64,000 nt of DNA, taken from Pseudomonadota bacterium (GTDB taxonomy: Bacteria; Pseudomonadota; Gammaproteobacteria; Steroidobacterales; JBCBZW01). Every line of letters begins with the position of its first letter. The first letter of the stretch is position 1. The notes under the pieces were generated by a model, which had not been told where the DNA came from, did no database searches, and worked only from the letters and a program-made list of their open reading frames with translations. Below, one piece after another: positions 1 to 20,176 of this stretch. A program made the position numbers and the translations under genes. The stretch covers positions 1-64,000 of the forward strand of contig JBCBZW010000016.1 in assembly GCA_039815145.1 (NCBI GenBank), given 5' to 3'.

Positions 1-1516
1 CCTCGCCGATAGGCAGCGCCTTGCCGCGCGAGCGCGCCCGCAGGGCATCGGCCTCGGTCGGACTCACCAGCGGCACGCTATCGATGCTCGCGCCCGGGGT
101 AGCTACCACGCCGCTCAGGAACTCGCCGTAAGCGTCGAGCAACATGGTGGCGGTGGATGCATCGTAGAGGTCGGTGGCGTACTCGGCGGACACCGTGAGC
201 TGCCCGTCGTCGATGTTTACGAAGCAGGTGAGGTCGAGCTTGGCGAAGCCGGACTCTACGACCAAGCGCTCCTGCGTGAGCTCGCCGAAGCGGGTGTCCG
301 CGCCCTCGTCGCTCTCCAACACGAACATGGTCTGGAACAGCGGGTTGGCGCCGAGGTCGCGTCCGGGCTGCAGCTCGGCCACCAGCACTTCGAAGGGCAA
401 GGCCTGGTGATCGACGGCCGCCAGGGCCGTTGCGCGTACCCGCGCCAGGAGCTGTTCGAAGGACTCGGCGCCATCGAACTGCTCGCGAATGACGACGCTG
501 TTCAGGAACAGGCCCACCATGGCGTCGGTCTGCGCCGGCGCACGGGAGGCCACCGGTGTGCCGACCCGCACGTCCGATTGCCCGCTCAGGCGGTAGAGCA
601 CGGCGAGGAAGGCGGCCAGCAACACCATGTACGGCGTCGCCTGGTGGCGGCGGGCGAGGGTCGCCACGGCACTCGCCAGGGCCGGATCCAGGCGGCGCTG
701 CTGCCAACCGCCGCGCAGGCTGGCCCGCGTGGGGCGCCGAAAGTCCCCAGGCAGGGCGGCGCAGGAATCGTCCAGGTCGCTCAGCTTGTCCCGCCAGAAC
801 GCGAGCTGCGCGTCGCGATGGCGCTCGATTTGCTCGCGCTGCCAAAGGGCGTAGTCGCCGTAGTCCACGTCGACGACCGCCGGCAGGCCTTCGTCGCCGC
901 CGCCGTGAGCGTAGGCCGTGGCCAACTCCCGGCGCAGTACGCCTAGGGACCACTCGTCCGCGATGATGTGATGTAGCACCAGCACCAACACGTGCTCGTG
1001 CGCGCCCAGGGCGATGAGCCCGGCCCGCACCAGCGGCCCCTGGGCCAGGGAGAACGGTTGCTGCACGAGTCTGCGGATCGCCTCGTGCTGGGCACCATCG
1101 ACATCCGAGGCCTGGGACACATCGCGCGTATCGAGCACCAACGGCGAAGGAGGTGCCACGCGCTGCACGAGTTCGCTGCCGCGCACCTCGAAGGTGGTAC
1201 GCAGGCTCGCATGGCGGTGGACCAGGATGTCCAAGGCCCTTTGCAGGGCGTCGCGGTCCAACGCGCCGCGCAGACGCAGGCCCAGCACCATGTGGTAGGC
1301 GGCACCGGCGCCGTGCAGTTGATCGAGGAAGTACAGGCGCGCCTGCGCGTAGGACGCGGGCGCCTCGGCGCGATCCTCGCGCGGCACCAGGGCAGGCACG
1401 TCGGCGCTCGCCGGCGCGGCGGACGCAGCGCTGCCCTGCAGGCGGCGCTTCAGGAGCTCGCGGCGTGCCGCGTCGAGGCGCTCGCGGCGATCATCGTTAC
1501 CGGTGGCGTCGGCCAT
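1..1516 (-). CDS. Nonribosomal peptide synthetase, condensation domain (partial, runs off left edge)
   Basis: This reading frame is open to the window edge, so only the first ~505 residues are seen. After a charged ~50-residue N-terminal stretch comes a condensation domain. Its catalytic motif is HHIIADEWS (about residues 182-190), matching HHxxxDGWS with Glu replacing Gly. It should join the upstream aminoacyl intermediate to the next residue of a peptide. The ATG lies 14 nt after the stop of the preceding NRPS, so the two are very likely co-transcribed and used in series. Adenylation and carrier domains, and any release domain, must lie outside the window, so the second building block cannot be read here. 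The family is clear; the product is unknown. Confidence 0.9.
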   Translation of the reverse strand, partial: MADATGNDDRRERLDAARRELLKRRLQGSAASAAPASADVPALVPREDRAEAPASYAQARLYFLDQLHGAGAAYHMVLGLRLRGALDRDALQRALDILVHRHASLRTTFEVRGSELVQRVAPPSPLVLDTRDVSQASDVDGAQHEAIRRLVQQPFSLAQGPLVRAGLIALGAHEHVLVLVLHHIIADEWSLGVLRRELATAYAHGGGDEGLPAVVDVDYGDYALWQREQIERHRDAQLAFWRDKLSDLDDSCAALPGDFRRPTRASLRGGWQQRRLDPALASAVATLARRHQATPYMVLLAAFLAVLYRLSGQSDVRVGTPVASRAPAQTDAMVGLFLNSVVIREQFDGAESFEQLLARVRATALAAVDHQALPFEVLVAELQPGRDLGANPLFQTMFVLESDEGADTRFGELTQERLVVESGFAKLDLTCFVNIDDGQLTVSAEYATDLYDASTATMLLDAYGEFLSGVVATPGASIDSVPLVSPTEADALRARSRGKALPIGE

Positions 1517-1530
1517 CTCCCGCGACCCGC

Positions 1531-4500
1531 CTAGGACTCGTCGAGGAGGCGTTCGACCTCCTCGTCTGAGAGCGACTCGATTTGCGCGATCAGCGCCGTC
1601 TCCACCGCCTGCGCCACCGCACCCAGCGTCGGAGCAGCGAAGAAACTCTGTAGGGGCAGCTCCACATCGAAGGCATCGCGGATCCGCGCGAGGGCCTGGA
1701 TCGCCGTCAGAGAAGCACCACCGAGATCGAAGAAATCATCGTGCACGCCCACCTGCTCCACGCCGAGCAGCGCGCTCCACACGGCGGCCAGCTGCTGCTC
1801 CACTTCCGTGGCCGGTGCCACGAAGGGCCCTACACTCCCCGCACCTGCCAGCTCCCAGGGCTTGGGTAGGGCCTTGCGGTCCACCTTGCCGGTGGCCGCC
1901 AGGGGCATGGCGTCCAGGGGCACGAGGTAGGCCGGCATCATCTCGTCGGGTAGCGTCGTGGCGAGGTGCTGGCGCAGGGCCTCGTTCGACAGCGCGCCAT
2001 CCGCAGCCGTGACGTAGAGCGCCAGACGCGCCTCGTCGCGCGCGGGCGGCTCGCGATAGCCCACCTCGCTCAGGATCTCGCGCACGCGACGGGTGTCGAT
2101 CTCATCGTCGAGCTCGTGCAACGCTGCCTCGCGGGTCTTGTGGCGAAGGCGCACGTCCCAGCTGTAGGGCAGCGCGTAGTTGTGGTACCCGCGCTCCTTG
2201 CGGTGCACGTAGATACCCGCTTCGTTGATCAGGCAGTTGGTGGAACGCCCCGTGTCGACCGGTCGCTGCCAGGGCGTGTTCGTCTCCAGGTACGCGTACA
2301 CCTCATCGAGGGGCACGTCCCAATAGCGGTAGAAGTCGACGAACTGGATCTGCTCGAAGACCCTGTCATCGTCGAAGGCGGAGACGTCCAGGTGCTGGGC
2401 GACGGCGTCGTCGATGCGATGGTAGACCTTGCGCGCATCAATGATGGCCCGCTCCACCTTGGTCACATCGAACTGGCGATGGCGGAACATCTCATCGAGG
2501 CGTGTCTCGAAGATCTGCCCGCGCGACAGGCCGGTGACGATGTAGCCGATGTTGCGTTGGCGCGCTTCGTTGATGGCGAGGGTGTAGATGGTCTTGAAGC
2601 AGCCGTGGCAGACGTTGCTGTGGCGACGCAGGCTGTCGGCGAAGATCGCGTTCATGTGCGGCGTGCGCGCCATCACCTGATCCACGCCGAGGGCCTTGGC
2701 CACCTGACGGGTGTTCTCGAGCGCCCCTTCCGAGATGAAGCCGTTGTCGAGGGTCAGCGCCAGGATCTTGAGGCCCATGGCGGCGACCTGATAGATCATA
2801 TAGGTGCTGTCCTTGCCCCCGGAGAGGAGCACGATGCAATCGTAATCCCCTTGACGTTGGGCGCGCATCAGGCCTGCGATCTCCTCCAGCGCCTCGCGCG
2901 GCTGGAAGTAGGCCTGGGCCTCCACCGCGTGACGTTCGAAGGTCACGCACATGCTGCACACGTCCGCGTCGTTGAAGACGATCCCGGGGTAGTTCGAGGG
3001 CATGCCGCAGCGCTGACAGAAGCGCACGGGATCTTGCGCCGCGCGGTCGACCACCACCGCCACCGCCTGCCCCACCTGCGGGTGCGCCACGGCAGCCGCT
3101 TCCACCTCGGCGAGCTCGATACGCGCCCCGCGCACCTTTACCTGAGCGTCGCCGCGACCCAGATACTCGAGACGCCCATCCACGGTCCAGCGGCCGAGAT
3201 CGCCCGTGCGATACACGCGCGCGCCGTCGAGAGCAGTCGCCTCGATGAAGCGTTGCGCCGTGAGTTCGGCCCGATTCACGTAACCGTCGGCGACGCCGAC
3301 ACCGCCGATGCAGATCTCACCGAGCAGTCCCGTCGGCACGGGATCGCCGTACTCATCGAGCAGGAAGATCTGGGCGTTGGCGATCGGTCGCCCGATCGGC
3401 ACCGACGCGGCGATGTCCTGCTTCGCGTCGAAGCGGTGGATCATGCACCCGACGGTGGCTTCCGTCGGGCCGTACTCGTTGTAGAGCGCGAGCGTGTCGG
3501 GGAACTGATCGGACACGGCGCGGGCGAGGTCCGTCTTCAGGTCCTCACCGCCAAGGATCAGCGTACGGATTCCCTGCGCCTTGCCGCCGAGCTCTCGAAT
3601 CAGCTCCAAGTGGGCCGGTGTGAGCTTGACCACGTCCACCGCATCGTCCTCGAAGACGCGCAGGACGGGCAGATCGTTGTCTCCCTCATCCAGATACACC
3701 ACCACGGCACCGCCGCACAGGAGCGGCGTGTAGAGGCTGGTGACCGTGAGGTCGACGGCGAGGGACGTGTGCAGGGCGAAGTCCTTCGCACCGCCTTCAC
3801 AGTACTGGCCGCGCGCCCACAGCAGGTAGTTGCTGAGAGCCGCGCGGGAGATCTGCACCCCCTTCGGCGTGCCGGTGGAGCCGGAGGTGTAGATCAGGTA
3901 GGCGAGATCTTGGGGCGCGCCGGCGGGCGTCACCGCCTCAGCGTGCTCGGGGGCAGCCGCTGCGTCGATGACCGGGTACTGCGACGGGAGACGTTCGCTC
4001 ATCGACGGCGCCGCCAGCACCCCGGTGAGGCGCAGGGGTGAGTGCGACAGATCGTCTAGAATCGCGGCGAGGCGTGCCGGTGGATGGCGGATGTCTAGGG
4101 GTAGGTACGCACCCCCCACTCGCAGGCTTGCCAGCATCGCCACCAGCGCCTGGGGCGAGCGCGGCAGGGCCAGCGCCAGTACAGCCCCCGGACCGTGACC
4201 TTGCGCCAGCAGGTAGCTAGCGAGATCGTTCACTCGCTGATCGAGCTCGGCGTAGCTCCAGGTGAGCTCATCGCAACGAAGGGCCGGCGCGGTTGGCGTG
4301 CGGGCCACCTGCGCCCGGAACGCCTCGTCTACGTCGCCGGCCTGCACTAGCTCGGGATGCCGCGTGTCGTTGAAGGCAATCAGCTGCTGCTGGCGCTCGT
4401 TCGCCGTGGACAGGTTACAGCGCCGGATCGGCTGCTCCGACTCGCGGATCAGCGCGTCGATGATGGCGAAGAAGTGCTGCGCGAGCAGATCTTGGGCCGC

Positions 4501-5754
4501 CGGGGAGAACACGCCTTCGTTCGCATCCAGGTCGACGCAGAGCTCGCCCTGGCCATCGAAATCGTGGACTTGAATGCGCAGCTTGTGGGCAGCATCGCCA
4601 GCGCCCGCGTGCACCCAATCGGTGTCCATGTCGAGCCCGGGTGGCGCCTGCATGCGCGCGGTGACGAAATTCAGCAGGACGTCGTAGGCCGTGTTGCTCG
4701 CCGCCGTGCTGGTGCCGGGGAGCCCGTGGCGCAGCGTATCCACCACGGCTTGGCCCACCTTCGCCGCGAGGGACGAGAAGGTCTCGTCGGTCTCGACGTC
4801 CACCTTCAGCGGAAAGACCTCCATGTAGAGGCCCGGCGTGAGCTTGTCGCGCGCCGAGAGGCGGTTGTGCATCGGCACGCCGAGCCCCAGGCGCTTCGCC
4901 CCGCTGATCCGCTGCAGCAGAGCCAGGACCGCGGTGGCGGTCAGACGAAAGAGACTCAGCTCTTCGTTCAGCAGCTGCATGCCCGGCGCCATGGCGAGAT
5001 CGCGCAGGGCGGCCGAGCGATCGGCGCCTAGGGGGAGGCGCAGGCGGCGCGTGCGCGAGTTGCGGCCGATGCCGCCCGTGGTGCCGTAGAAGGGCTGCCG
5101 ATCGGCGGGCTTGGCGAGCAACGCCTCCCAGTAGGCCCGTGCGCTGGCGTAAGACTTGCGATCGCGCGCACTGCGCTCGCGGGCGACATAGTCCGCGTAG
5201 GCAGGCACCTCCGTCTCGCTCGACGCAGCACCCTCGTAGTGGGCGAACAAGCGCTCGCACAACAAGGCGGACGCCCAGGCGTCGCTCACCACGTGGTGCA
5301 GCTTCAAGAACCACACGTGGTGCGTCGGACCGATGCGCAGGAGCGCGCTCTCGTAGAGGCAATGCGACAGGGTGACGGGCACGCGGGCACGCTCGTGCAC
5401 CCAGCGTTCGCAGGCCGCCTCGGCGTCGTCGCGGGAGGCGAAGTTCACCTGGTCGAGGGGCGGGAATTCGCTCGCCGCCAGCACCTGCTGCTGCGGCACG
5501 CTGTCCGCTTCGCGCAGCACCGTGCGCAAGGCGTCGCACTCGGCTACCAGGGCCTCGAACGCCCCCGCGAAACGCTCAGCGTCGAGGACGCCCTGCAGGC
5601 GGAAGGCGAACACCATGTTGTAGAGCGGCGAGGTGGGCTCCACCTGCTGCCCCATCCAGATCAGGAACTGGCTGCGCGTGAGGTTGCTGGCCGCCTCGAT
5701 GTCGTCGATCCATCGACCGGTGAGGGCATCACCGGTCGACGTGTCGGCGGTCAT
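1531..5754 (-). CDS. NRPS module C-A-PCP with a PP-loop ATPase inserted in the adenylation domain; code suggests Asn
   Basis: 1407 aa. The start at 5754 overlaps the upstream carrier-protein stop by 4 bp (ATGA). Order: condensation domain (HHVVSDAW, residues 153-160); adenylation N-terminal part from ~470 (TSGSTGTPKG 623-632, NEYGPTE ~759-765, RTGDLGR ~849-855, A8 RGARIELAEVE ~875-885); insertion ~905-1230; adenylation C-terminal part (A9 ~1262-1280, A10 GKVDRKAL with Lys1290); carrier domain with LGGASL (Ser1348). By alignment from memory to GrsA, the specificity residues read D-L-T-K-I-G-E-V-G-K, the pattern known for asparagine. The insert has CxxC pairs (913/916, 933/936, 1049/1052) and the PP-loop SGGKDST (978-984), resembling WbpG-like N-acetyl-sugar amidotransferases of the adenine nucleotide alpha-hydrolase superfamily. 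Methyltransferases are the usual insert at A8-A9. What this insert does (amidation, sulfur transfer or other adenylation chemistry) is inference only. Confidence 0.93.
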   Translation of the reverse strand: MTADTSTGDALTGRWIDDIEAASNLTRSQFLIWMGQQVEPTSPLYNMVFAFRLQGVLDAERFAGAFEALVAECDALRTVLREADSVPQQQVLAASEFPPLDQVNFASRDDAEAACERWVHERARVPVTLSHCLYESALLRIGPTHHVWFLKLHHVVSDAWASALLCERLFAHYEGAASSETEVPAYADYVARERSARDRKSYASARAYWEALLAKPADRQPFYGTTGGIGRNSRTRRLRLPLGADRSAALRDLAMAPGMQLLNEELSLFRLTATAVLALLQRISGAKRLGLGVPMHNRLSARDKLTPGLYMEVFPLKVDVETDETFSSLAAKVGQAVVDTLRHGLPGTSTAASNTAYDVLLNFVTARMQAPPGLDMDTDWVHAGAGDAAHKLRIQVHDFDGQGELCVDLDANEGVFSPAAQDLLAQHFFAIIDALIRESEQPIRRCNLSTANERQQQLIAFNDTRHPELVQAGDVDEAFRAQVARTPTAPALRCDELTWSYAELDQRVNDLASYLLAQGHGPGAVLALALPRSPQALVAMLASLRVGGAYLPLDIRHPPARLAAILDDLSHSPLRLTGVLAAPSMSERLPSQYPVIDAAAAPEHAEAVTPAGAPQDLAYLIYTSGSTGTPKGVQISRAALSNYLLWARGQYCEGGAKDFALHTSLAVDLTVTSLYTPLLCGGAVVVYLDEGDNDLPVLRVFEDDAVDVVKLTPAHLELIRELGGKAQGIRTLILGGEDLKTDLARAVSDQFPDTLALYNEYGPTEATVGCMIHRFDAKQDIAASVPIGRPIANAQIFLLDEYGDPVPTGLLGEICIGGVGVADGYVNRAELTAQRFIEATALDGARVYRTGDLGRWTVDGRLEYLGRGDAQVKVRGARIELAEVEAAAVAHPQVGQAVAVVVDRAAQDPVRFCQRCGMPSNYPGIVFNDADVCSMCVTFERHAVEAQAYFQPREALEEIAGLMRAQRQGDYDCIVLLSGGKDSTYMIYQVAAMGLKILALTLDNGFISEGALENTRQVAKALGVDQVMARTPHMNAIFADSLRRHSNVCHGCFKTIYTLAINEARQRNIGYIVTGLSRGQIFETRLDEMFRHRQFDVTKVERAIIDARKVYHRIDDAVAQHLDVSAFDDDRVFEQIQFVDFYRYWDVPLDEVYAYLETNTPWQRPVDTGRSTNCLINEAGIYVHRKERGYHNYALPYSWDVRLRHKTREAALHELDDEIDTRRVREILSEVGYREPPARDEARLALYVTAADGALSNEALRQHLATTLPDEMMPAYLVPLDAMPLAATGKVDRKALPKPWELAGAGSVGPFVAPATEVEQQLAAVWSALLGVEQVGVHDDFFDLGGASLTAIQALARIRDAFDVELPLQSFFAAPTLGAVAQAVETALIAQIESLSDEEVERLLDES

Positions 5755-6011
5755 TGCGTCGCGACCCCTTGGCGGGCTTCGAGGTAGGCCACGAGCACAT
5801 CGACGGAGCGGAAGTTCTCGATCGTGATGTCCTGCGGCGGCACGGCGAGGCCGAGTTCGCTGTCGATGAAGGTCACCAGGCGCATGACGCCGAGGGAATC
5901 GAGGTAGCCGTCGACGAGCAGTTCGTCGTCGCCGCCGATGGTCACGTCGTCCTGGTCCGCCAGGAGATCGTCGTTGATGAAGTCGATTACTTGCTGTCGC
6001 ATGGCATTCAC
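5751..6011 (-). CDS. Stand-alone peptidyl carrier protein (PigG/PltL/RedO-like)
   Basis: 86 aa acidic carrier protein. The phosphopantetheine site is in the segment DGYLDSLGVMRL, where the Ser of DSL is the attachment residue. This segment and the later ENFRSVDVLV segment look like the prolyl carrier proteins of prodigiosin and pyoluteorin biosynthesis. It is expected to hold L-proline as a thioester while the neighbouring dehydrogenase oxidises it to pyrrole-2-carboxyl. The annotated start is GTG; an in-frame ATG lies at 6002. The stop overlaps the ATG of the NRPS downstream, and the prolyl-AMP ligase ends 18 nt upstream, so the order ligase-carrier-NRPS matches the flow of substrate. Confidence 0.88.
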   Translation of the reverse strand: MNAMRQQVIDFINDDLLADQDDVTIGGDDELLVDGYLDSLGVMRLVTFIDSELGLAVPPQDITIENFRSVDVLVAYLEARQGVATQ

Positions 6012-6029
6012 TGTGCTCGCGCTTGACCC

Positions 6030-7625
6030 TCAAGCAGGCTGCGCGTTGTTGTTGTCGTGGTGGGCTTCGGCCGCTAGCCGTAGCGCACGTCGGTCCACCT
6101 TACCCGAGGTGGTGCGGGGAAACTCGTCGACGACGGTCAGGGCCACGGGCACCGCGTAGGCGGGCAGGCGTGCCTTGAGCGCGCGCTGCAGGGGCGCCGC
6201 CTCGAGCTCGCCGTCGGGCGCCTGGCGCGCCGAGGCGTGCACGGCGAGCGTGCCCGTGCCGTCGGTCACCGGGAACACGGCAGCCTCCTCCACGCCCTCG
6301 CACGCGGCGAGGGTGGCCTCGATCTCGTCGAGGTCGACGCGGCAACCGCGAGTCTTGATCAGGCGGTCCGCCCGGCCCAGGAAGTCGAAGTTGCCGTCGT
6401 CGCGTTGGATGACGATGTCACCGGTGCGGTAGAAGCGATCCGGCGAACACGCAGGGTAGCGCGCCACGTCGTGGTACGCCTTCGCCATCAGATCCTCACG
6501 ATTCCAGTAGCCGCGCATCATGGTGGGTGCGCGGATCGCCAATTCGCCGGTCTCACCGGGTGTGACGCCCTGGCCGTCAGCATCGATCACCAGCGCCTCG
6601 ACGTTGTCGTAGGGCGTGCCGATGGGCAGGGACGGCGCATCGTCCGCGGCGATCGGCGGCACGTAGTAGCGCGTGCAACCGTTCACCTCGGTCGGGCCGT
6701 ATACGTTGCAGAAGGAGACGTGGGGCAGGAGTTGCTGCAGGCGGCGCAGGTGCTTGATGGTCATCGGCTCGCCGCCGAAGAGCACGCGCGTCAACGCCGG
6801 CAGGGGGCGCTCCTCGAGGGCCTTGCTCGTCACCAGCTGGATCAGGGCGAAGGGTACCGTGTAGAAGAGGCTCATGGCCTCCTCCTCCAGCAGCTGCGCA
6901 AGGCTCGCCGGCATGCGCGCATGCTCTTCGGGCACCATCACCATGGTGCAGGCCGCTAGGGCGCCGGCGAAGTAGTCGAGGGTGGAGAGATCGAAGTGCA
7001 AGGGAGCGTAGTTGCTGATGCGATCGTCGGGCACCAGCTGGTGCTCGGCCGCCGACACCTCCGCCCAGGCCATGGCACTGCGGTGGGAATGCATGATGCC
7101 CTTCGGCGTGCCCGTCGAGCCGGAGGAGTAGAGGATGTAGCAGGGATCCTGCTCGGTCACGGCCACCGGCGGCGCCTGGTCGCGCCCGCCCGCAGCGATC
7201 TGCGCCCAGGTGAGGCCATCGCCAGCCTCGCCCTCCACGCCGATCACGTGCTCGATCGCCTGCGTCGCCTCGGCGAGCTGCGCGAGCTGGCGCCGGCGAC
7301 GTGGCTCGGTAATCAGGACTCTTAGGCCACCGTCTTCGACGATGAACGCGTGGCGCAGGGCCGGCGCGCCGGGATCGAGGGGCACGTAGGCAGCCCCGGC
7401 CTTCATGATGGCGTGGATGGCCACGGCGCACGCGACGCCCTTGCCGAGCAGCACGCCAACCCGATCGCCGCGACGCACGCCGCGCGCGACCAGCTCGTGG
7501 GCGAGGCCGTTGGCCTGACGCACCAGGGCCTCGTAGGTGAGCGCCTCGCCGCGACAGCGCACGGCGTCGCGCGACGGCTCGCGAGCCGCCGCGTCATCCA
7601 CCAGGCGATGGAGCAGGTAGCGCAC
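6030..7625 (-). CDS. L-prolyl-AMP ligase, carrier-protein loading (PigI/PltF/RedM family)
   Basis: 531 aa free-standing adenylation enzyme with GTG start. Core motifs: YSSGSTGTPKG (A3), FCNVYGPTEVN (A5), YRTGD (A7), GRADRLIKTRGCRVDLDEIE (A8) and TSGKVDRRAL (A10). The stretch HFDLSTLDYFAGALA followed by a hydrophobic FYTVPFALIQL segment is characteristic of the proline-activating ligases of pyrrole pathways rather than of generic fatty-acyl ligases. It should convert L-proline and ATP to prolyl-AMP and load the adjacent carrier protein. It lies 16 nt after the dehydrogenase stop. Substrate assignment rests on family resemblance and on the neighbouring dehydrogenase and carrier; no structure-based code was computed. 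Confidence 0.85.
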   Translation of the reverse strand: MRYLLHRLVDDAAAREPSRDAVRCRGEALTYEALVRQANGLAHELVARGVRRGDRVGVLLGKGVACAVAIHAIMKAGAAYVPLDPGAPALRHAFIVEDGGLRVLITEPRRRRQLAQLAEATQAIEHVIGVEGEAGDGLTWAQIAAGGRDQAPPVAVTEQDPCYILYSSGSTGTPKGIMHSHRSAMAWAEVSAAEHQLVPDDRISNYAPLHFDLSTLDYFAGALAACTMVMVPEEHARMPASLAQLLEEEAMSLFYTVPFALIQLVTSKALEERPLPALTRVLFGGEPMTIKHLRRLQQLLPHVSFCNVYGPTEVNGCTRYYVPPIAADDAPSLPIGTPYDNVEALVIDADGQGVTPGETGELAIRAPTMMRGYWNREDLMAKAYHDVARYPACSPDRFYRTGDIVIQRDDGNFDFLGRADRLIKTRGCRVDLDEIEATLAACEGVEEAAVFPVTDGTGTLAVHASARQAPDGELEAAPLQRALKARLPAYAVPVALTVVDEFPRTTSGKVDRRALRLAAEAHHDNNNAQPA

Positions 7626-7641
7626 CTCGACCCCGCCCCGC

Positions 7642-8799
7642 CTACACGCCGAGCAGGCGAGCGATGACCTGGCGCTGAATGTCCGAGGTGCCGGAGTAGA
7701 TCACGCCACCGGCCGCATCGCGCAGATCCCGCTCGACGCCCGCCTCGGAGAGATAGCCCCTGCCGCCGTGGATACGCATCGCATCGAGGCTGGAGGCGAC
7801 GAAGGCTTCAGAGATGTGCAGCTTGGCGAGCGCCGCCTCCGCCGCCGACGCGCCGCCGTTGTCCATCGCCCAGGCGGCGCGGTAGAGCAGCAGGCGGGAG
7901 GTTTCCAGGCGCAGCTTCATCTCCGCCAGGCGGTTGGAGATGCTCTGGTAGTTGGCGATGGGTTGGCCGAACACCTCGCGCTTGCGGGCGAAGGTCACGC
8001 ACTCGTCGAGCTGGCGCGCCATGGAGCCCACGTGGCTGGCGAAGATGAAACTCCGCTCCCACTCCATCGAGTGCTGGAAGATGCTCTGACCCGCGCCGAT
8101 GGGGCCGAGCATGGCGTCCGCGGGCACACGGCAGTTCTCCAAGGTGAGCTCACCCATGGGCGCCGTGCGCAGGCCCATCTTCTGTTGCGGTTCGCCGCGG
8201 ACGAAGCCTGGCGTGGTCGCTTCCACCAGGAAGGCCGACAGCCCCCACTGGCCAAGGGATGGGTCCGTGGTGGCGAACACCAGCGCTAGGTCGCAGGTGG
8301 GGCCCAGGCCGATGTAGGTCTTGTGGCCGTTGAGCACGTAGTCGTCGCCGTCGCGCTCAGCCACGGTGCGCAGGCCAAAGGCGTTGGAGCCGGAGGCTTC
8401 CTCGGTCATGCCGTGGGCGCCGATGAGCTGGCCGCCGGAGAGGCCCGGCAGGTAGCGTCGCTTCTGCTCGTCGGTGCCGAAGGTCTGGATCGGCTCCTGC
8501 ACGGCCCAGATCTGGCCGTTGAGGCCAAGCGTCAGGCCGTTGTCCGGGCAACCGTAGCCGATCGCCTCGAGCACCATGATGGTGTCGACGGTGCTGAGGC
8601 CACGGCCGCCGTACTCGGTCGGCACGTTGAGGCCGAGGACGCCGAAGTCGGCGCACTTGTTCCAGTCGCCGCGCCAATCGCTTTCGTCCTTGGCGCCGCG
8701 GTGGTCGCGAGCCACGAGGTCCGCGCCGAGCTCTTTGCTGGCGAAGTCACGTGCCGCGTCGATGAGCTCCTGGCTCTGCGGGTCTACGGAGAAGTCCAT
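7642..8799 (-). CDS. Acyl-CoA dehydrogenase-fold flavoprotein, probable L-prolyl-S-PCP dehydrogenase (PigA/PltE/RedW-like)
   Basis: 385 aa, the full length for the acyl-CoA dehydrogenase family. Visible signatures are the central FAD/substrate segment GAHGMTEEASGSNAFGL, the glycine-rich RIHGGRGYLSEAGVERDLRD and the C-terminal YSGTSDIQRQVIARLLG. In prodigiosin- and pyoluteorin-type pathways, enzymes of this family perform the four-electron oxidation of carrier-bound proline to pyrrole-2-carboxyl. The call depends on that context: a prolyl ligase and a carrier protein follow immediately. No electron-transfer partner is encoded beside it, and an ordinary acyl-CoA dehydrogenase cannot be excluded from sequence alone. 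A purine-rich GAGAG stretch precedes the ATG. Confidence 0.85.
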   Translation of the reverse strand: MDFSVDPQSQELIDAARDFASKELGADLVARDHRGAKDESDWRGDWNKCADFGVLGLNVPTEYGGRGLSTVDTIMVLEAIGYGCPDNGLTLGLNGQIWAVQEPIQTFGTDEQKRRYLPGLSGGQLIGAHGMTEEASGSNAFGLRTVAERDGDDYVLNGHKTYIGLGPTCDLALVFATTDPSLGQWGLSAFLVEATTPGFVRGEPQQKMGLRTAPMGELTLENCRVPADAMLGPIGAGQSIFQHSMEWERSFIFASHVGSMARQLDECVTFARKREVFGQPIANYQSISNRLAEMKLRLETSRLLLYRAAWAMDNGGASAAEAALAKLHISEAFVASSLDAMRIHGGRGYLSEAGVERDLRDAAGGVIYSGTSDIQRQVIARLLGV

Positions 8800-8838
8800 C
8801 GTCTCTCGCTCTCAACTCTTCCCTGGATACCGAAGCCG

Positions 8839-9912
8839 TCAGCTCACCACGGCGGCTACCGCCCGGTCTACCTCGGCGAATTGATACGGGTTCAGGGGGT
8901 CGTCACTGATCGACTCGAGGTCGAGCTCGAGGCCGAGGTTGAACTGCTCAGCCCACTCCAGGGCCAGCTCTAGGGCCACGTGGTCCTCGAGGGCGAAGCC
9001 GGTGGAGTCGAAGACCGTGAGGCGATCCTGGTGGGCCTGCATGGTAGCGGCCTGCTTGGTGATCTGCAGCAGATCCGGGCCGATCTGGTCCGCCTCCAAG
9101 CGCTGGCACTCGCCTTCCTTCATCGCCTGGGGCGAGTAGTCGGGGCACACGAGGGCGCGCTGGAGCAGGGTGAGGGGTAGCTCGGTCTTACCGGGGAAGT
9201 CCGCGCCCACGGCGTTCACGTGCAGGCCCGGCTGGCAGTGGCCGTCGTCCACCACCGGGCCGGCGCCGGCGGCCACGGACGTGGCGGTGACGAGCATGTC
9301 CGAGCGCGCCAGGATCTGCGCGCCCGTGGCCGGCGCGATCTCCAGCGGTCGCGGCGACAGGCCCGCGACACGCTGGGCGAAGGAGGCCACGGCGGCCGGG
9401 TCCACGTCGTAGATCAGCACCTGCTCCAGGGGGAAGCAGCGGCTCAAAGCGTGCACGTGACACACGGCTTGCGCGCCGACACCGACGATGCCGAGGACGC
9501 GACTGTCCGGCCGCGCCAGAATCTGGCTCGCCACCGCCGAGGCCGCCGCCGTGCGCACGGCGGTGAGGAAGGTGGCATCGCTGAGGCCGATCAGATGGCC
9601 CGTGTCCGTGTCGTAGGCACCGACCGTGGAGAGGATCGTCGGCAGCTGGAAGGCGCTCGGGTTACGGGGGTGGTAGCCCACCATCTTCACCGTCACCCGA
9701 CGCCCCGCCTCCATCACCGGCATCCACTCGATCAGGCCCACCCGCGGTTGCTCGTAGGTGTAGCCATCGCGCACGCGCACCTCGAAGCGCTGCGGGTCGA
9801 ACTCGCGACAGGTCTCGGCCAAGCGTTCGATCATGCGGTCCATGATCTCGTCCAGTCCGACCTTGGCGACCAGCGCCGCGAGGTCCTGGCTTCTTATTAT
9901 TCTCGTCTTCAT
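8839..9912 (-). CDS. Ornithine cyclodeaminase / mu-crystallin family protein
   Basis: 357 aa from the ATG at 9912; another ATG at 9930 would add six residues, but its GAGG directly abuts the start, whereas GGGA lies six bases before 9912. The Rossmann motif GIVGVGAQAVCHVHAL and the family segments VKMVGYHPRNPSAF and LTAVRTAAASAVA are clear. The founding enzyme turns L-ornithine into L-proline and ammonia with bound NAD. A dedicated proline supply makes sense directly upstream of the prolyl dehydrogenase, ligase and carrier. Other family members act as imine reductases or make unusual amino acids in siderophore clusters (SbnB), so proline formation is an inference from context. The TonB receptor upstream ends 20 nt before this start. 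Confidence 0.82.
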   Translation of the reverse strand: MKTRIIRSQDLAALVAKVGLDEIMDRMIERLAETCREFDPQRFEVRVRDGYTYEQPRVGLIEWMPVMEAGRRVTVKMVGYHPRNPSAFQLPTILSTVGAYDTDTGHLIGLSDATFLTAVRTAAASAVASQILARPDSRVLGIVGVGAQAVCHVHALSRCFPLEQVLIYDVDPAAVASFAQRVAGLSPRPLEIAPATGAQILARSDMLVTATSVAAGAGPVVDDGHCQPGLHVNAVGADFPGKTELPLTLLQRALVCPDYSPQAMKEGECQRLEADQIGPDLLQITKQAATMQAHQDRLTVFDSTGFALEDHVALELALEWAEQFNLGLELDLESISDDPLNPYQFAEVDRAVAAVVS

Positions 9913-9932
9913 GACCTGTCCCGGTTCCATCC

Positions 9933-12071
9933 TCAGAACCGCAAGGTGAACGTTGCCCTTAGCTGGCGCGGCTCCACCTGGTGAATGTGCACGTCTTCCA
10001 CGCCCTCACCACTGCTGCCCACGCCGCAGACCGCTTGCGGGTCCGTGGGCAGGCAGGAGGCGAAGAAGTAGGAGATGTCCGGATCGTTGGAGTCGAAGAG
10101 GTTGAAGGCATCGACGGCCACTTCGAAGCGCTGGCGACGGTAGCCGGCACGCAGGTTAACCACCGAGGTGGAATCCGCCATCACACTGCCGTCTTCGGTC
10201 AGGGGGCTGTCGCCGAAGTGGCGGAAGTAGATACCGCCGAAGGGGCCGCTCGGCAGATCGAAGCTGAAGCCACTGGTGATCACCCGACCGACCGAGCCCG
10301 GGATCTCATCGCCGTTGTCGAACTCCGAGTCCGTGAAGGCGATGTCCGCGTCGAAGGTGAGGAACTCGTTGATGCGGTAGAAGTTGCTCCACTCCACACC
10401 GACGCGACGGGAGGACCCGCTCGGCTCGGTGGTGCCGGCATCACCGACGAACAACAGCTCCGAATCGAGCTCCAGCCACCAGACGGCAAGGGTGGATTGC
10501 AGGCCGGGGATGATCGCCGTGCGCACACCGATCTCCGCGCCGCGCGACTGCACCAGCGGCGTGACCGGATCGGCGGGCTCGCCGCTGGCCGGATCGATGC
10601 GCGTGACCGTGCCGCGGGCGTCGTTGCTGTGGAAGGCCTCGCCGGCGTTCAGGTAGATCTCCGTCTCACGGAAGGGGCCGAACACGAGGGTGGCCTTGGG
10701 CTGCACGAGGCCGTCGCTCTCATCGCCCACGTTGGCGGCGATGTTGCTCTCGTCGATGTCGAACCAGTACTGGTTGGCGCGCAGACCCAAGGTCGTGCGC
10801 ATCCAGGGCGTGAGCTCGATGGTGGTGTCGGCGTAGACGCCGATGTTGGTCTGGCTGCCCTCGTCCTCACGCACGGTGGAGATCGGGTTACGGGCCTGGC
10901 TGCGCAGCAGCGCGACGTCGTAGATCTCATCGTGGCGCAGCTGCGTGCCCACGCGGGTGGTCCACGGGCGGCCGAACAGCTCGTTGGTGAACTCGTACTC
11001 GAAGTTACCGCCCACGATCAGGCGACGATCGCGCTGGGTGATCTGATCGCCGTTCTCGGGATCGTCGAGGAAGTAGGTGAAATTCGAGAACAGCTCGAAG
11101 TCCGAGGCGACGGCGTAGGCGTTGCCGCGGAAGCCGCCTCCATTAGGCGGATCACCGGCAAACTCGAAGTTGAGGCTGTAGCGCTCGCTCTCACCGCCGA
11201 GGGTGGGATCGATGTTACCTAAGGGGCTGATCAGGCCCTGCTCGATGGCGCGCGCGGGCACCTGATCCGTGGAGTTCCAGTCGGCCGCGTAGACGGATCC
11301 GGACAGGGACAGGAAGGTGTCGCCGACGTGGCCGGAGATGCGCGCAAAGGCGTTGAGCTTCTGGGCGTCGTTGTCGAGCTCCCAGGGGCCGTCGTACTGC
11401 TCCAGCTCCAGCGCGCCGAGGATGTTGGCATCGCCAGCAAACTGCTTCGAGCCGGCGAGCACCGCGCGGTAGAAGCCGAACTCGCCCACGGTGGCTTCGA
11501 TGACAGGCGCCGCCAGGGAGTCCTTCAGGTTGTAGCGCGCGTAGCCGGCGGACGAGAAGTCGCCGATGTCCGCGTAGTAAGGGCCCTTGCCGAAATCGAC
11601 CGTCTGCACCAGCTCGGGGATGATCGGGTTGAGGTCGAGGTAACCCTGACCGTGGCCATGGGTGGGCAGGTTGAGCGGAATACCGTCGACGAAGCCCGCA
11701 AAGTCCGTGCCGTGGTCGAGGTTGAAGCCGCGCAGGAAGTACTGGTTTGCCTTGCCGGGCCCGGAGTGTTGGGTCACGGCGGCGCCGGGAATCGCTTCGA
11801 GCAGCTCACCCACGCGCAGGGTGGGGCGCGCCGCGAGGTCGTCCTGGCCGATGAATCCCTGGGACGCCGATGAGGCGACGCCGATCAGGCTCGTGGAGCG
11901 GCCGGTGACGACCACCTCTTCGTCCACTTCCTCTTCGTGGGCGTGGGCGCCGACGGCGCTCAACAGGGAAGCGGTGAGTATCACGCTGGCGATGTGCCGC
12001 AGCGCAATAGGAGAGCTCGAGTTCGCAGTAACGTCGTCCGGTCTGGCGCCGGATACTTGGGCAAAACGCAC
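9933..12071 (-). CDS. TonB-dependent outer-membrane receptor, first gene of the NRPS operon
   Basis: 712 aa. A hydrophobic signal-like segment lies unusually far in (about residues 28-45, ending in AHA), followed by the TonB-box-like EEVVVTGR, a plug domain with LRGFNLDHGTDFAGF and LPTHGHGQGYLDLN, and a barrel ending in ...FTLRF, as outer-membrane proteins do. The His-rich loop THGHGQ and the HAHEEE at the mature N-terminus suggest contact with a metal or metal complex, but this is not proof. The next gene starts within 20 nt, so receptor and biosynthetic genes look like one transcript. That pairing is typical of siderophore or other metallophore operons, in which the receptor recovers the loaded product. 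The only start visible is 12071; a shorter protein is possible. Confidence 0.88.
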   Translation of the reverse strand: MRFAQVSGARPDDVTANSSSPIALRHIASVILTASLLSAVGAHAHEEEVDEEVVVTGRSTSLIGVASSASQGFIGQDDLAARPTLRVGELLEAIPGAAVTQHSGPGKANQYFLRGFNLDHGTDFAGFVDGIPLNLPTHGHGQGYLDLNPIIPELVQTVDFGKGPYYADIGDFSSAGYARYNLKDSLAAPVIEATVGEFGFYRAVLAGSKQFAGDANILGALELEQYDGPWELDNDAQKLNAFARISGHVGDTFLSLSGSVYAADWNSTDQVPARAIEQGLISPLGNIDPTLGGESERYSLNFEFAGDPPNGGGFRGNAYAVASDFELFSNFTYFLDDPENGDQITQRDRRLIVGGNFEYEFTNELFGRPWTTRVGTQLRHDEIYDVALLRSQARNPISTVREDEGSQTNIGVYADTTIELTPWMRTTLGLRANQYWFDIDESNIAANVGDESDGLVQPKATLVFGPFRETEIYLNAGEAFHSNDARGTVTRIDPASGEPADPVTPLVQSRGAEIGVRTAIIPGLQSTLAVWWLELDSELLFVGDAGTTEPSGSSRRVGVEWSNFYRINEFLTFDADIAFTDSEFDNGDEIPGSVGRVITSGFSFDLPSGPFGGIYFRHFGDSPLTEDGSVMADSTSVVNLRAGYRRQRFEVAVDAFNLFDSNDPDISYFFASCLPTDPQAVCGVGSSGEGVEDVHIHQVEPRQLRATFTLRF

Positions 12072-12202
12072 GTCCGTGTCCTCTGTGTGATTCGTGCCTG
12101 GTCCTTATTCGTCCGCCAGGCCGCGTCCGATCCTTGTGAGTCCCACTCTACGGCCAAGATGTGGCATTAAGGCGACGAACGGTCGTTTATACGCGAACAA
12201 CG

Positions 12203-12218
12203 ACGGCAGTCCTGCCGT
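12203..12218. promoter_or_regulatory. Perfect 7-2-7 palindrome upstream of the receptor-NRPS operon
   Basis: ACGGCAG, two bases, then CTGCCGT. It lies ~130 bp before the receptor start and ~70 bp after the stop of the class V PLP enzyme, with TATAAA at 12191-12186 (minus strand) beside it. It may be an operator for the biosynthetic operon. It could equally be a short terminator hairpin for the genes upstream, since a mildly T-rich stretch follows on the minus strand. I see no Fur-type box in the 216-bp gap. Confidence 0.4.
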
Positions 12219-12287
12219 AGCGACAGCTATTGCGGCGGTTATGTTCGATCGGTGGGCGTTTCGGCAACCAACGCCGCTAGGCGAGCG

Positions 12288-13475
12288 TTAACAGAGGGGA
12301 TGCAGGGACGCGATGAGACGCTCGATTTCCGAGGGCGTATTGAAATAATGCACGGACGCTCGCACCACCGCCGTGAGACCCCGGCGCTCGAACCACACCA
12401 GGTTGCCGGACCCGCTCGCGACGGACACGTTGACCCCGCACTTGCCCAGGCCCGCCTTGATCGCCTCCGCCTCGCGCCCCGCGACGGTGAAGGTGACGAT
12501 GCCGCAGCGCTCATGACCACCGTCCACCACGTCCACCCCAGGGACGGTGCCCAAGGCGCTGCGCAGAGCCTCGGCGAGTTCCTGCACCCGCGAATAGATC
12601 GCGGGCAGGCCGAGGTCACAGGCGTAGCGCATGGCCACGGCGAGGCCGGCCTGGCCGGCGCAGTAGCGCTCCCAGCATTCGAAGCGGCGCGCGTCGTCGC
12701 GCATCGTGAACCGCTCCGGCGAGGTCAGAACGGCGGCATGCTGGTCGAGAAAGGGCGGGTCCAGGCGATCCAGGAACTCGCGCCGTACATAGAGCAGGCC
12801 CGTGCCCCGCGGACCGCGCAGGTACTTCCGCCCGGTGCCGGAGAGCATGTCGCAGCCGAGCGCTTGCACATCCACCGGCATCTGGCCGAGGGACTGGCAG
12901 GCATCGAGGAGGTAGGGCACGTCGTGGGCACGCGCCAGGGCGCCCACCTCAGCCGCCGGGTTCACTAGGCCGTTGCCCGTGGGCACGTGACTCAGGGCGA
13001 TCAGCTTCACCGGTCGGCTGCGATCGCCCAGGCGACGCTCCAACCAACCCAGATCCACCACCCCAGCCTCGTCATCGGCCATGAACTCGACGGCAAAGCC
13101 TCGACGCGCGGCCTGGTGCTGGAGCGCGATCACGTTGGAGCCGTACTCGCTGAGCGGCGCCAGCACCGTATCGCCCGATCCTAAGGCCAGACCGTAGAAG
13201 GCCATGTTCCACCCGCGGGTCGCGTTTTCCACGTAGGCGACCTCCTCCGTCCGGCAGTTCAGCAGCTCCGCGGCGGCCAGGTAGAAGTCTTCGAGCTCGT
13301 GGCGCCGCGTGGCCTCCACCTCGTAGCCACCGCGCCGCTCTTCGTCGCGCAGCCAATCCGTAAGGCGATCCACCACTCGCGCGGGCATCAGCGACGCACC
13401 GGCGTTGTTGAAGTGGCAGCTGTGCTCCAGCCCGCGCGTATCGCGGCGCACGCGCGCCAGGGGGAATTCGCTCAC
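12288..13475 (-). CDS. Class V aminotransferase-fold PLP enzyme (cysteine desulfurase / isopenicillin-N-epimerase superfamily)
   Basis: 395 aa from a GTG start at 13475 that overlaps the upstream transporter stop by 4 bp (GTGA); a longer frame exists but would run deep into that gene. The PLP-site features are LSHVPTGNG (~161-169), DACQ (Asp191, Gln194) and SGTGRKYLRGPRGTG, in which Lys217 should form the Schiff base. The fold covers cysteine desulfurases, selenocysteine lyases, C-S lyases such as EgtE, and epimerases. I do not see the mobile-loop cysteine typical of desulfurases, so a C-S lyase or another beta-elimination activity is as likely. Being coupled to an exporter and close to a PP-loop NRPS, a role in sulfur or amino-acid chemistry is possible but unproved. 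Confidence 0.8.
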   Translation of the reverse strand: MSEFPLARVRRDTRGLEHSCHFNNAGASLMPARVVDRLTDWLRDEERRGGYEVEATRRHELEDFYLAAAELLNCRTEEVAYVENATRGWNMAFYGLALGSGDTVLAPLSEYGSNVIALQHQAARRGFAVEFMADDEAGVVDLGWLERRLGDRSRPVKLIALSHVPTGNGLVNPAAEVGALARAHDVPYLLDACQSLGQMPVDVQALGCDMLSGTGRKYLRGPRGTGLLYVRREFLDRLDPPFLDQHAAVLTSPERFTMRDDARRFECWERYCAGQAGLAVAMRYACDLGLPAIYSRVQELAEALRSALGTVPGVDVVDGGHERCGIVTFTVAGREAEAIKAGLGKCGVNVSVASGSGNLVWFERRGLTAVVRASVHYFNTPSEIERLIASLHPLC

Positions 13476-14377
13476 GCCGTCTTCTCCTGCGAAGGGGTGG
13501 GTGGCGACGCCGGACGCCGCAGAATCACCACGTTGCCGAGGAGGGCCAGTGACACCCCCGCCAGCAGCCAAGGCGTCACCGCGAGGCCCTCGAACAGCGC
13601 CGACAAGATCAGGGCCACGATCGGGAACATGACCACCACGTACCCGGCCCGATGGGCGCCGATGCGGCCGAGCAGGGTGAGGTAGGTGCCGAAGGCGATG
13701 ACTGAGCCGAACACCGCCAGGTACACCAATGAGATCACGTAGGCGGGGGAGGTATCGAAGGTGAATTCATCCCCGCGCAGGAGGGCGAACAGGAGTTGGC
13801 CCAGGGCGCCATAGGCCATACCCCAGGCGTTGCTCTGCACGACCGGCAGCGACTGGCGAGATCCCCACTGGGCCGCCATGTTGCCGAAGGAGGCGATCGT
13901 CGCCCCGAGCAGCGAGTACATGACCCCGAGCATGACGCTGCCGCTGAAACCCGTGGTCGCCAGCTCCGGCCAGAACAGCACCACGACGCCCGCCAGCCCC
14001 AAGACCGCACCCCACCACACCCTGGCCTCGATGTGGGTGCCGAAGATGAGGCGTGCGTTGATGATGTTCATCCACAGAAGCATGGAGAACAGGATGGCAT
14101 TCAGAGCGGAGCTGATATGGAACTGCGCCTGGTAGGCCGCTGCGTAGTTAAGACCGAACAGGAGCAGACCGAGGAGCAGGAACACGCGATGGGCGCGCCA
14201 CCCGAAGGCCATCGGCAGGCCACGCCACCAGCACCAGGCGAAGAGCACGGCCGCGGCCAGCACGTAGCGGTAGACCAGCGACACCGCCGGACTCACCTCA
14301 CCGAGCTGAAACTCGATGGCGAACCAGGTCGACCCCCAGATCAATACCGATGATAGGTAGAGGAAGAGGTCGCTCAC
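13472..14377 (-). CDS. EamA/DMT-family transporter, ten-helix inner-membrane exporter
   Basis: 301 aa with about ten hydrophobic helices in two repeats of the drug/metabolite transporter fold. The N-terminus ([22 protein letters not shown]) shows the usual EamA start, and the family length of ~300 matches. Members export amino acids, metabolites or drugs, or import a few nutrients; the substrate cannot be read from sequence. The GTG start overlaps the uvrA stop by 4 bp, and its own stop overlaps the start of the PLP enzyme by 4 bp, so the three genes are translated together. Because the trio lies directly upstream of an NRPS operon on the same strand, export of the product or a precursor is worth considering. 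Confidence 0.85.
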
Positions 14378-17300
14378 GCGCCTCGCTCGCTCAGGAACTC
14401 ACGCAGGGCCACCCCTGTGAGCGACGCCCGCTTACGGGCCGCCACCGCCTCCGGCGTGCCCCGGGCCACGATGCGCCCGCCCCCTTCCCCGCCCTCGGGG
14501 CCGAGGTCGATCACCCAGTCCGCCTCGGCGATCACGTCCAGGTTGTGCTCGATCACGATCACCGTGTTGCCCGCATCCACCAGGCGGTGGAGCACGCGGA
14601 TCAGCTTCTCCACATCGGCCATGTGCAGGCCCACGGTAGGCTCGTCGAGCACGTAGAGCGTGCGCGGCAGGGTGCGACGTGAGCGCCCGCCCGGCGCGGC
14701 GCGGGCGAGCTCGAGCTGCTCGATGCTCGGCGCCTTCGCCAGCTCCGTCACCAGCTTGATCCGCTGTGCTTCGCCGCCGCTCAGGGTGGGGCTGCGTTGG
14801 CCGAGGGTGAGGTAACCCAAGCCCACGTCCTGCAGCAGGGTCAGGGTCTTGAACAGCTTCGGATGGGACTCGAAGAAGGGCGCCGCCTCATCGATGCTCA
14901 TCGCCAACACGTCGGCGATACTGCGCTCACGGTAGCGCACGGCGAGGGTCTCGCTGTTGAAGCGCGCGCCTTCGCAGCGCTCACAGCGCACTTCCACGTC
15001 CGGCAGGAAGTTCATCTCCACCTTGCGCACGCCCTGCCCTTCACAGGCCTCGCAGCGCCCGCCGCGCGTGTTGAAGGAGAAGCGGCTCGGCTGATAGCCG
15101 CGGATGCGTGCCTCGGCCGTGTCCGCATAGAGGCGACGGATGTAGTCGAAGATGCCGACGTAGGTGGCCGGGCAGGACCGTGGGGTCTTGCCGATCGGTG
15201 TCTGATCCACCTCCAGCACGCGATCGACGTGCTCCGTCCCGTCCAGAGACTCGCAACCGAAAAGCGTCGGCGCCTTACGCTTGCGACGCCCCGCCGCAGC
15301 GATGAGATTCGTCAGGTTACGGTAGAGCACGCCACGGACGAGGCTGCTCTTGCCGCTGCCGCTCACGCCGCTCACGCACACCAGGCGCTGGAGCGGCAGG
15401 TCCACGCTCACATCGCGCAGGTTGTTCGTGTGCGCGCCGGCGATGCTGAGGAACTGCTCCGCCTTGGGTCGCCGCGCCATGAGCGGATGCACCAGGGGGT
15501 TGGCAAGCAGCTGCCCGGTGACCGAGCGCTTGGCCTTCGCCACCTGCTTCGGCGTGCCCTGGGCCACGAGCTCACCGCCCCGGGAGCCAGCGCCGGGCCC
15601 TAAGTCGATCACATGGTCGGCAGCGCGGATCGTGTCCTCATCGTGCTCCACCACCACCACCGTGTTGCCCTTGCGCTGGAGTTGCTGGAGCGTGTCGAGG
15701 AGCATGGCGTTGTCGCGCGCGTGCAGGCCGATGGTGGGTTCGTCCAGGATGTAGCACACGCCGCGCAGGTTCGAGCCGAGCTGGGACGCCAGGCGCAGGC
15801 GCTGCGCCTCGCCACCGCTCAAGGTGGGCGCGGGGCGATCGAGGGCCAGGTAGCCGAGGCCCACCTGCTGCATGAAGTCGAGGCGCGCACGCAGCTCGGT
15901 GAGCACGTCGCGGGCGATATCCTCGTCGCGGCCGCTCAGCTTCAGGCGATTGAAGAAGGTGCTCGCCGCACCGACCGAGAGCCCCGCGAGGTCGGCGATC
16001 GAATGGTCGCGGAAGCGCACACTGAGCGCTTCGCGGCGCAGGCGTTGACCATCGCAGCTGGGGCACACGTCGGGTTCCCCGTCGTCGGCCGCCGCTTCCG
16101 CCACCCAACTGACCTCTTCACCGCTGGCCTCCTCGTCGAAGTCGCGCAGCACCTGACCGGTGCCGAAGCAGCCCTCGCACCAGCCATGGCGCGAGTTGTA
16201 GGAGAACAGGCGCGGGTCGAGTTCCGGGAAGCTCGTGCCGCAGCCGGGGCATGCGCGCCGGGTGGAGTAGAGTGCCTCGTCGGCTCGGGTCGCAGCCGTG
16301 GCCTTTTTTCTGCCTTTTTTGGGCGCGGCATCAGCCACGGGCGCGATGCGGGCGAGACCGCCGCCGTGCTCCATCGCCTCGCGCAAGGCGTCGCGCAGGG
16401 TCTCACGATTACCGGCCTGCACCTTGAGCTGGCGCACGGGCAGATCGATGTCGTGCTCCTGGAAGCGCTTCAGGCGCGGCCAATCGTCGGTGGGCGTCAG
16501 CACGCCGTCGACGCGCAGCTGCTCGTAACCCTTACCCGACGCCCACTTGGCCAGGTCCGTGTAGTAGCCCTTGCGCGCCACCACCAGCGGGGCAAGCACG
16601 CTCACCTCCTGGCTGCGGTAGCGCGACAGCACCTGGCCGAGCACCGCGTCGAGGGTTTGCGGCTCGATCGCAAGGCCACAATCCGGGCAGTGGGCGGTGC
16701 CGAGCTTCACGAACAGCAGGCGCAGGAAGTGGTAGAGCTCGGTCATGGTGGCGACCGTGCTCTTGAAGCCGCCGCGGCTCGTGCGCTGCTCGATCGCCAC
16801 GGTGGGCGGGATGCCGTGGATAGCGTCCACGTCCGGCCGCGTGGAGGGCTGCACGAATTGGCGTGCGTAGGCGTTCAAGGACTCGAGGTAGCGACGCTGC
16901 CCCTCGCCGAACAGGATATCGAAGGCGACCGTGCTCTTGCCGCTGCCGCTGACGCCGGTGATCACTGTGAATCGATCGCGCGGCACTTCCACGTTCACAC
17001 CCTTGAGATTGTGCTCACGGGCGTTGCGGATACCGATCGCCTGGGCGCGCTTGGCACGCGCCGGTGCTTTCCTGGCGGCGGCAGGTGAGCGCTTGGCTTT
17101 GGCGGCGGCGCGCAGGGCCGCGTCCGCGTTGCGCAGAGACGTGCCTGTGTGTGAGTCACGCGCCTTGCGTACGGCCGCCGGGGTACCGGCGAACACGACC
17201 TCGCCGCCAGCGCTGCCGCCCTCGGGCCCCAGGTCGACCAACCAATCGGCCGCGTTGATCACATCGAGATTGTGTTCGATCACGACCAGCGACCCGCCGT

Positions 17301-20028: not shown

Positions 20029-20176
20029 GGCGCTCGCGAGGGCCGCACGGAGGACAGGCGACGATAGGGGGGCGGTCCGCAGCCGGTCAAGGCTTGACAC
20101 GGGGCGGTCAGGCGCCGCGTTTTCCGCGATAATCCCGCCTTTCTCAGCGCAGTCAGCAAAGCAGGAGTTCGGACCC
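20029..20176. promoter_or_regulatory. Divergent control region between uvrA and the beta-oxidation gene
   Basis: 148 bp between two divergent starts. It contains a perfect dyad GTCAA-GGC-TTGAC at 20086-20098, which overlaps a TTGACA hexamer (20094-20099), and a GATAAT hexamer at 20128-20133. The two hexamers are 28 bp apart, too far for one sigma-70 promoter, so they may belong to different promoters. No SOS (LexA) box of the Escherichia type is visible. Confidence 0.35.

Follow-up and report, generated by a model that had tools for sequence, protein, structure and literature searches.

An amidotransferase-fold PP-loop domain within an asparagine-activating adenylation domain, in a gene cluster predicted to make pyrrole-Asn-His metallophores

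The interrupted adenylation (A) domains of nonribosomal peptide synthetases (NRPS), such as those of KtzH and TioS, are bifunctional and act in cis, with a second domain inserted between the motifs a8 and a9. Methyltransferase, KR or Ox domains can occupy this place, and the types that a review of these proteins catalogues are M, Ox, KR and MOx (methyltransferases, oxidases and ketoreductases). The DNA analysed here (the window) comprises 64,000 nucleotides of a gammaproteobacterial genome (assembly GCA_039815145.1, 6.0 Mb in 295 contigs), taken from base 1 of contig JBCBZW010000016.1 (C16). The window carries an operon in which the asparagine (Asn) A domain of the first NRPS (NRPS1) is also interrupted between A8 and A9, with the insert being a PP-loop ATPase domain of predicted N-acetyl sugar amidotransferase fold. 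No description of this insertion or of its cluster was found in the open papers searched, a scope that leaves aside the majority of subscription journals as well as the principal catalogue of interrupted A domains, from 2020.

The inserted PP-loop domain

The insert has about 326 amino acids and is a complete PP-loop ATPase domain. The AMP-binding core and A8 precede it, whereas A9-A10 and the peptidyl carrier protein (PCP) domain follow it. Its motifs are CxxC...CxxC, SGGKDS, VCxGCxK and a late conserved cysteine (Cys). The match to the NCBIfam model TIGR03573 (WbuX, N-acetyl sugar amidotransferase) reaches 131.1 bits with the whole protein and 136.0 bits with the domain alone, below the curated cut-off of 203.2, and Pfam gives a weak match to QueC. 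An AlphaFold2 model built from eight homologues (pLDDT 74, with a poor C-terminal part) superimposes over the whole length on 8wex, a Legionella N-acetyl sugar amidotransferase (Z 18.7, root-mean-square deviation 4.3, 298 residues). The next fold matches are TtuA, LarE, NAD synthetase, TilS and ArtA, with Z of about 10-11 over 150-200 residues. By this model, the insert has the fold of the N-acetyl sugar amidotransferases.

The SGGKDS motif is invariant, as are seven Cys in every sequence that extends over them (a single partial contig stops before the last Cys). Across 14 NRPS1 proteins, the mean identity to the window is 58% for the insert, 44% for the A core, 38% for the PCP and 34% for the condensation (C) domain. 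The dN/dS between the window and its congener is 0.059 for the insert and 0.12-0.19 for the A and C domains. Because of the fold match, the invariant motifs, the highest conservation and the low dN/dS, the insert is taken to be an active and central enzyme. A degenerate or structural insert was ruled out, given that this is the most conserved domain of NRPS1 and keeps its motifs invariant.

The closest described proteins, WbpG/WbuX (TIGR03573; 8wex), share with the insert the whole-length fold, the N-terminal Cys ribbon, SGGKDS and, in one subgroup, CxxC + C. Unlike them, the insert is embedded in an NRPS and scores under the family cut-off, and its substrate is probably a PCP-bound amino acid instead of a nucleotide sugar. 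True sugar amidotransferases are accompanied by HisH and HisF, and the pair was present beside standalone homologues. On the other hand, no HisH/HisF pair was found among the annotated genes beside the NRPS clusters, except for a separate glycan locus on two Rhodobacterales plasmids. Two further arrangements of standalone proteins were observed. Contig C11 of G457 (L064) has a tandem or near-tandem WbuX-type pair in which both copies keep CWHC, with a HisF-like gene nearby, and contig C6 of G533 (L063) has a comparable pair in which both copies are devoid of CxxC.

Amide activation followed by the attack of a nitrogen, leading to an amidine or a cyclised amidine, is the favoured chemistry because of the relationship to the amidotransferases. 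As the HisH/HisF pair is missing, free ammonia, an intramolecular ring closure or the dehydration to a nitrile would be possible. In the latter case, the insert would be a self-contained amide dehydratase that adenylates the side-chain amide of Asn and eliminates AMP to yield beta-cyanoalanine, like ArtA in the auranthine pathway. The location within an Asn-specific A domain agrees with this route, which requires ATP alone and thus fits the absence of a nearby glutaminase or sulfur carrier. Nitriles are made by the PP-loop enzymes QueC, with its weak Pfam match, and ArtA (PMC13060819; 9lei, Z 10.8). QueC/ToyM and ArtA activate amides with a PP-loop and ArtA works in an NRPS pathway, but these proteins are standalone and less similar in fold (Z of about 10-11 for ArtA). 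A nitrile is considered quite unlikely, since the insert is nearest to 8wex, and not to QueC or ArtA, in sequence and whole-length fold, its Zn-ribbon and CxxC + C cysteines are of the WbuX type, and a nitrile contributes little to a metal ligand.

The cysteines of the insert also resemble those of sulfurtransferases: the CxxC + C triad and the N-terminal Cys ribbon have counterparts in TtuA, NcsA and mmLarE, whose folds rank next after 8wex (Z of about 11). A [4Fe-4S] cluster on the triad might then serve to form a thioamide (thio-Asn or a pyrrole thioamide) for a soft metal, for example Cu(I), and a thioamide would suit copper. However, standalone WbuX proteins encoded next to HisF have this triad too, and no sulfur carrier or donor was recognised in the clusters. 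The adjoining SufS/EgtE-like aminotransferase gene (12288-13571) is an unlikely sulfur supplier, as its product, by inspection, lacks a Cys where desulfurases usually have one and the gene is not conserved in other clusters. A thioamide is regarded as improbable. The predicted product masses differ for most of these chemical outcomes, whereas the cyclised amidine and the nitrile are isomers.

Operon, building blocks and predicted product

The operon genes lie in one tight minus-strand run, with intergenic gaps of a few to about 40 bases, in the order TonB receptor, ornithine cyclodeaminase, prolyl-PCP dehydrogenase, proline ligase, free carrier, NRPS1 and NRPS2. The sequence-only reading had described such a run, and profile searches located all of its genes in the window. 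That reading also presented NRPS1 as C-A-PCP: the three domains are there, and the A domain contains in addition a PP-loop domain. An assembly artefact was ruled out as the source of the layout, which a congener and members of distant phyla share.

The starter systems of PltF/PltE, RedM/RedW, PigI/PigA and AnaB comprise a proline ligase, a prolyl-PCP dehydrogenase and a free PCP. These components, required for a pyrrole-2-carboxyl-PCP starter, occur together in the operon, and the free PCP has a homologue at the same position in 9 other clusters. The dehydrogenase matches the RedW/PigA models with about 388 bits, under the cut-offs of those models, and its best solved relative is 4irn, a prolyl-acyl carrier protein (ACP) dehydrogenase (386.6 bits, E 1e-114), with 5zw0 also close. 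Because the dehydrogenase and the ligase match solved prolyl-PCP/ACP enzymes, the predicted pyrrole-2-carbonyl starter is well supported. The pyrrolyl-2-carboxyl-S-PCP proposed earlier is supported by the matches to 4irn/5zw0 and 6o6e. Unlike in the described systems, the starter feeds an Asn-His NRPS and not a polyketide synthase or a prodiginine pathway, and the ornithine cyclodeaminase is an additional component, with homologues in the G470 and Acidimicrobiales clusters.

The A-domain code of NRPS1, DLTKIGEVGK, can be read directly from the sequence and its earlier assignment to Asn was confirmed. The contig ends within NRPS2, and the left flank was recovered from contig C177 of the same genome and from the congener G001. 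The join of C16 and C177 is based on homology, with about 1.4 kb (part of the NRPS2 A core) unassembled between them. The operon continues on C177, where the rest of NRPS2 precedes a HupE/UreJ permease gene. In G001, NRPS2 is organised as C-A-PCP-thioesterase (TE) and is followed by genes for a HupE/UreJ-family permease, a flippase, a glycosyltransferase, a phosphatase-like protein and an alpha/beta-hydrolase, a continuation that is the same on C177.

The NRPS2 A domain has the code DS(A/V)(M/A/C)(I/M)AEVWK, its residues read by hand from aligned motifs, in nine clusters (G001, G005, G019, G688, G470, the Chloroflexi locus L020, Geminicoccaceae, Acidimicrobiales and Roseovarius). The sole exception is the Gemmatimonadaceae locus L019, whose code differs from this type. 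DSALIAEVWK is a histidine (His) code (PMC12283262), and the other variants were called His by resemblance. The Asn- and His-type codes together with the pyrrole starter therefore point to the predicted scaffold pyrrole-2-carbonyl-Asn*-His, where Asn* is a modified Asn. The sequence-only reading had a product that starts with pyrrole-2-carbonyl-Asn, with the Asn or its carbonyl perhaps modified; pyrrole and Asn are sustained, and the modification fits the insert, which had been overlooked.

In the proposed pathway, the free PCP would receive proline, partly derived from ornithine, and oxidation would give pyrrolyl-2-carbonyl-S-PCP, which NRPS1 would couple to Asn. The PP-loop domain would then use ATP to activate an amide oxygen of the PCP-bound Asn or pyrrolyl-Asn, forming an AMP-imidate. 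Subsequently, a nitrogen (ammonia or intramolecular) would attack the AMP-imidate to give the amidine or the cyclised amidine. NRPS2 would add His and its TE would free the product. The pyrrole nitrogen, the amidine nitrogen, the imidazole and the carboxylate would form a compact, nitrogen-rich ligand for Ni, Co, Cu or Zn, and the uptake could take place via the HupE/UreJ permease and, in the window's genus, the TonB receptor. The metal-binding half of bleomycin presumably offers a likeness, with an Asn-derived ring beside a His unit in a nitrogen-rich metal ligand, although it has no pyrrole starter.

Variations of the NRPS architecture were also observed. In the related clusters L035 and L060, the second module is split into C-A, a gene for a methyltransferase and another that bears the PCP. 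In addition, NRPS1 of G005 terminates in an epimerase-like domain; these architectures suggest methylated and D-configured variants. The NRPS2 TE is itself interrupted in G001 (L039:5609-6418) and on C177 (L077:832-1641) by a segment in which two apparent membrane helices flank a hydrophilic domain. The homologues of this segment are separate genes of 229 amino acids that adjoin HupE (L061:6125-6811 and L060:14637-15323), so the TE insert resembles a protein associated with HupE that has become fused into the thioesterase.

Metal handling and weight of the evidence

HupE is encoded in or beside the clusters of G000, G001, G005, G688, G470, Geminicoccaceae, an Acidimicrobiales metagenome-assembled genome and both Rhodobacterales plasmids. 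A tree built from 41 HupE rows places the cluster copies in one clade (support 94/97), which excludes the six other HupE copies of the window genome. The remaining members of the clade come from the congeners of G005 and from G005 itself, where it is the same gene; these also adjoin cluster genes, and within the sample analysed the clade was found only in these clusters. Since the cluster copies form their own clade and its members adjoin cluster genes, the HupE/UreJ permease is, from its phylogeny, part of the system; the tree rules out a chance neighbour.

The sequence-only reading relied on the TonB receptor as the main argument for a metallophore. The receptor is weaker evidence for a metal because it is limited, among the clusters found, to G000 and G001 (the window's genus) and its sequence is closest to the pyrroloquinoline quinone importer PqqU/YncD and not to a siderophore receptor. 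The metallophore claim gains context from the His-type third unit and the cluster HupE/UreJ in several phyla. A metallophore role, with the predicted metal binding of the product, is plausible. The product might otherwise act as a signal or an antibiotic or decorate the cell surface, and be glycosylated or attached there, in line with the glycosyltransferase and/or polysaccharide-type flippase genes beside the clusters of G001/G000, G470, Geminicoccaceae and the Rhodobacterales plasmids. This appears unlikely, as the His-type code and the cluster-specific HupE/UreJ clade in several phyla fit metal handling better, and HupE recurs more constantly than the glycosyltransferase and the flippase.

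Taken as a whole, the cluster would make pyrrole-2-carbonyl-[modified Asn]-His, with the insert activating the amide with ATP and the product acquiring a borderline or soft metal; the probability of this reading is placed at roughly 0.5. The gene set, the order of the modules, the Asn- and His-type codes, the insert with its fold and conservation, and the place of HupE in the cluster are visible in the sequences; the exact chemistry, the product, its metal binding and the identity of the metal we infer. Several points weigh on the other side. The insert scores under the curated TIGR03573 cut-off and the HisH/HisF partner is missing from the clusters. The PP-loop fold is shared by TtuA, LarE, QueC and ArtA, which makes thioamide or nitrile chemistry possible. 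The His A core of the window genome is unsequenced and His was assigned from G001. It is the family name that makes metals the presumed cargo of HupE/UreJ, the Chloroflexi loci showed no HupE, and the TonB receptor is restricted to one genus. Inspection of the promoter by eye showed no Fur or Zur signal upstream of the operon, no metal regulator was found, and positions 9000-24000 contain no Rfam riboswitch.

Distribution, feature coordinates and significance

Short patterns were used to scan 84,980 species genomes, so the counts are a lower bound. The insert was found in at least seven further genomes, belonging to Ardenticatenaceae, two more Chloroflexi, Thiomargarita, Gemmatimonadaceae, Geminicoccaceae and Acidimicrobiales. 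It is present in a long NRPS frame in 6 of 296 sampled genomes of the window's order and, in a sample of the phylum, in 1 of 398, the window genome only. Two Rhodobacterales plasmids, of Roseovarius pelagicus and Pseudohalocynthiibacter, also carry it. The insert-bearing Asn-coded A domains span Gammaproteobacteria, Alphaproteobacteria, Chloroflexi, Gemmatimonadota, Acidimicrobiales and Thiomargarita, with an Asn-type code in all 14 of the 14 insert-bearing NRPS. A single insertion event followed by wide transfer would be the simplest reading.

The Pseudohalocynthiibacter and Roseovarius plasmids (L066, L067) share the cluster and the neighbouring glycan locus (sugar amidotransferase, HisF and HisH) with identical protein accessions, which indicates a recent transfer between genera. 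On a plasmid of Streptomyces sp. NBC_01216 (L068:18074-22124), a PP-loop copy 41% identical leads a separate C/E-like protein and is not an A-domain insert; asnB and a gene for an A-PCP protein come before its gene, and the cluster also holds a tyrosine 2,3-aminomutase gene.

The features of the operon are listed in Table 1. NRPS1 starts with the ATG at 5754, in a long open frame that begins earlier and reaches 6033.

Table 1. Coordinates of the operon features in the window.
Feature	Position	Strand	Support
TonB-dependent receptor, first gene of the operon	9933..12071	-	Plug and barrel Pfam; nearest solved structures YncD/PqqU, 69 bits
Ornithine cyclodeaminase homologue (proline supply)	8839..9930	-	PF02423, 208.7 bits
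L-prolyl-PCP dehydrogenase-like acyl-CoA dehydrogenase (pyrrole formation)	7642..8799	-	RedW/PigA models; 4irn
L-proline adenylating ligase	6030..7625	-	TIGR01733; 6o6e L-proline--PCP ligase, 271 bits
Free peptidyl carrier protein for proline/pyrrole	5751..6011	-	Carrier-protein models, DSL motif
NRPS1, C - A(Asn) interrupted by PP-loop domain - PCP	1531..5754	-	Profile matches
NRPS1 condensation domain, HHVVSDAW	4426..5682	-	PF00668, 176 bits
NRPS1 adenylation core A1-A8, code DLTKIGEVGK (Asn)	3058..4425	-	TIGR01733, 384 bits
Inserted PP-loop domain (SGGKDS; CxxC-CxxC ribbon; CxxC + C)	2050..3027	-	TIGR03573, 131-136 bits; 8wex, Z 18.7
NRPS1 A subdomain (A9-A10)	1840..2049	-	Weak PF13193 match, open-frame residues 1335-1383
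NRPS1 carrier domain	1534..1839	-	PF00550, 55 bits
NRPS2 N-terminal part (condensation domain), rest beyond contig end	2..1516	-	PF00668, 324 bits

The SufS/EgtE-like gene, a class-V aminotransferase on the minus strand, and an EamA transporter (13472-14377, minus strand) precede the operon in both congeners and not in other clusters. Further upstream, 14374-20442 (minus strand) encodes a UvrA-like protein of 2022 amino acids, roughly double the length usual for UvrA. It gives several ABC/P-loop matches, whereas the DNA-binding and the interaction domain of UvrA are each matched once; it may be a tandem UvrA fusion.

The cluster may, tentatively, represent a new type of interrupted A domain, with an amidotransferase-fold PP-loop enzyme that makes an amidine or an Asn-derived ring, and a family of pyrrole-Asn-His chelators for a non-iron metal that crosses phyla. 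An amide-activating ATPase inside an assembly line, if true, would be a new logic of in-cis tailoring, useful for placing amidines, heterocycles or nitriles in peptides. A cultured carrier of the cluster exists in Roseovarius pelagicus. The open papers searched gave no assigned metallophore for HupE/UreJ permeases; should the product prove to be a metallophore for a metal other than iron, these permeases would have a candidate ligand.

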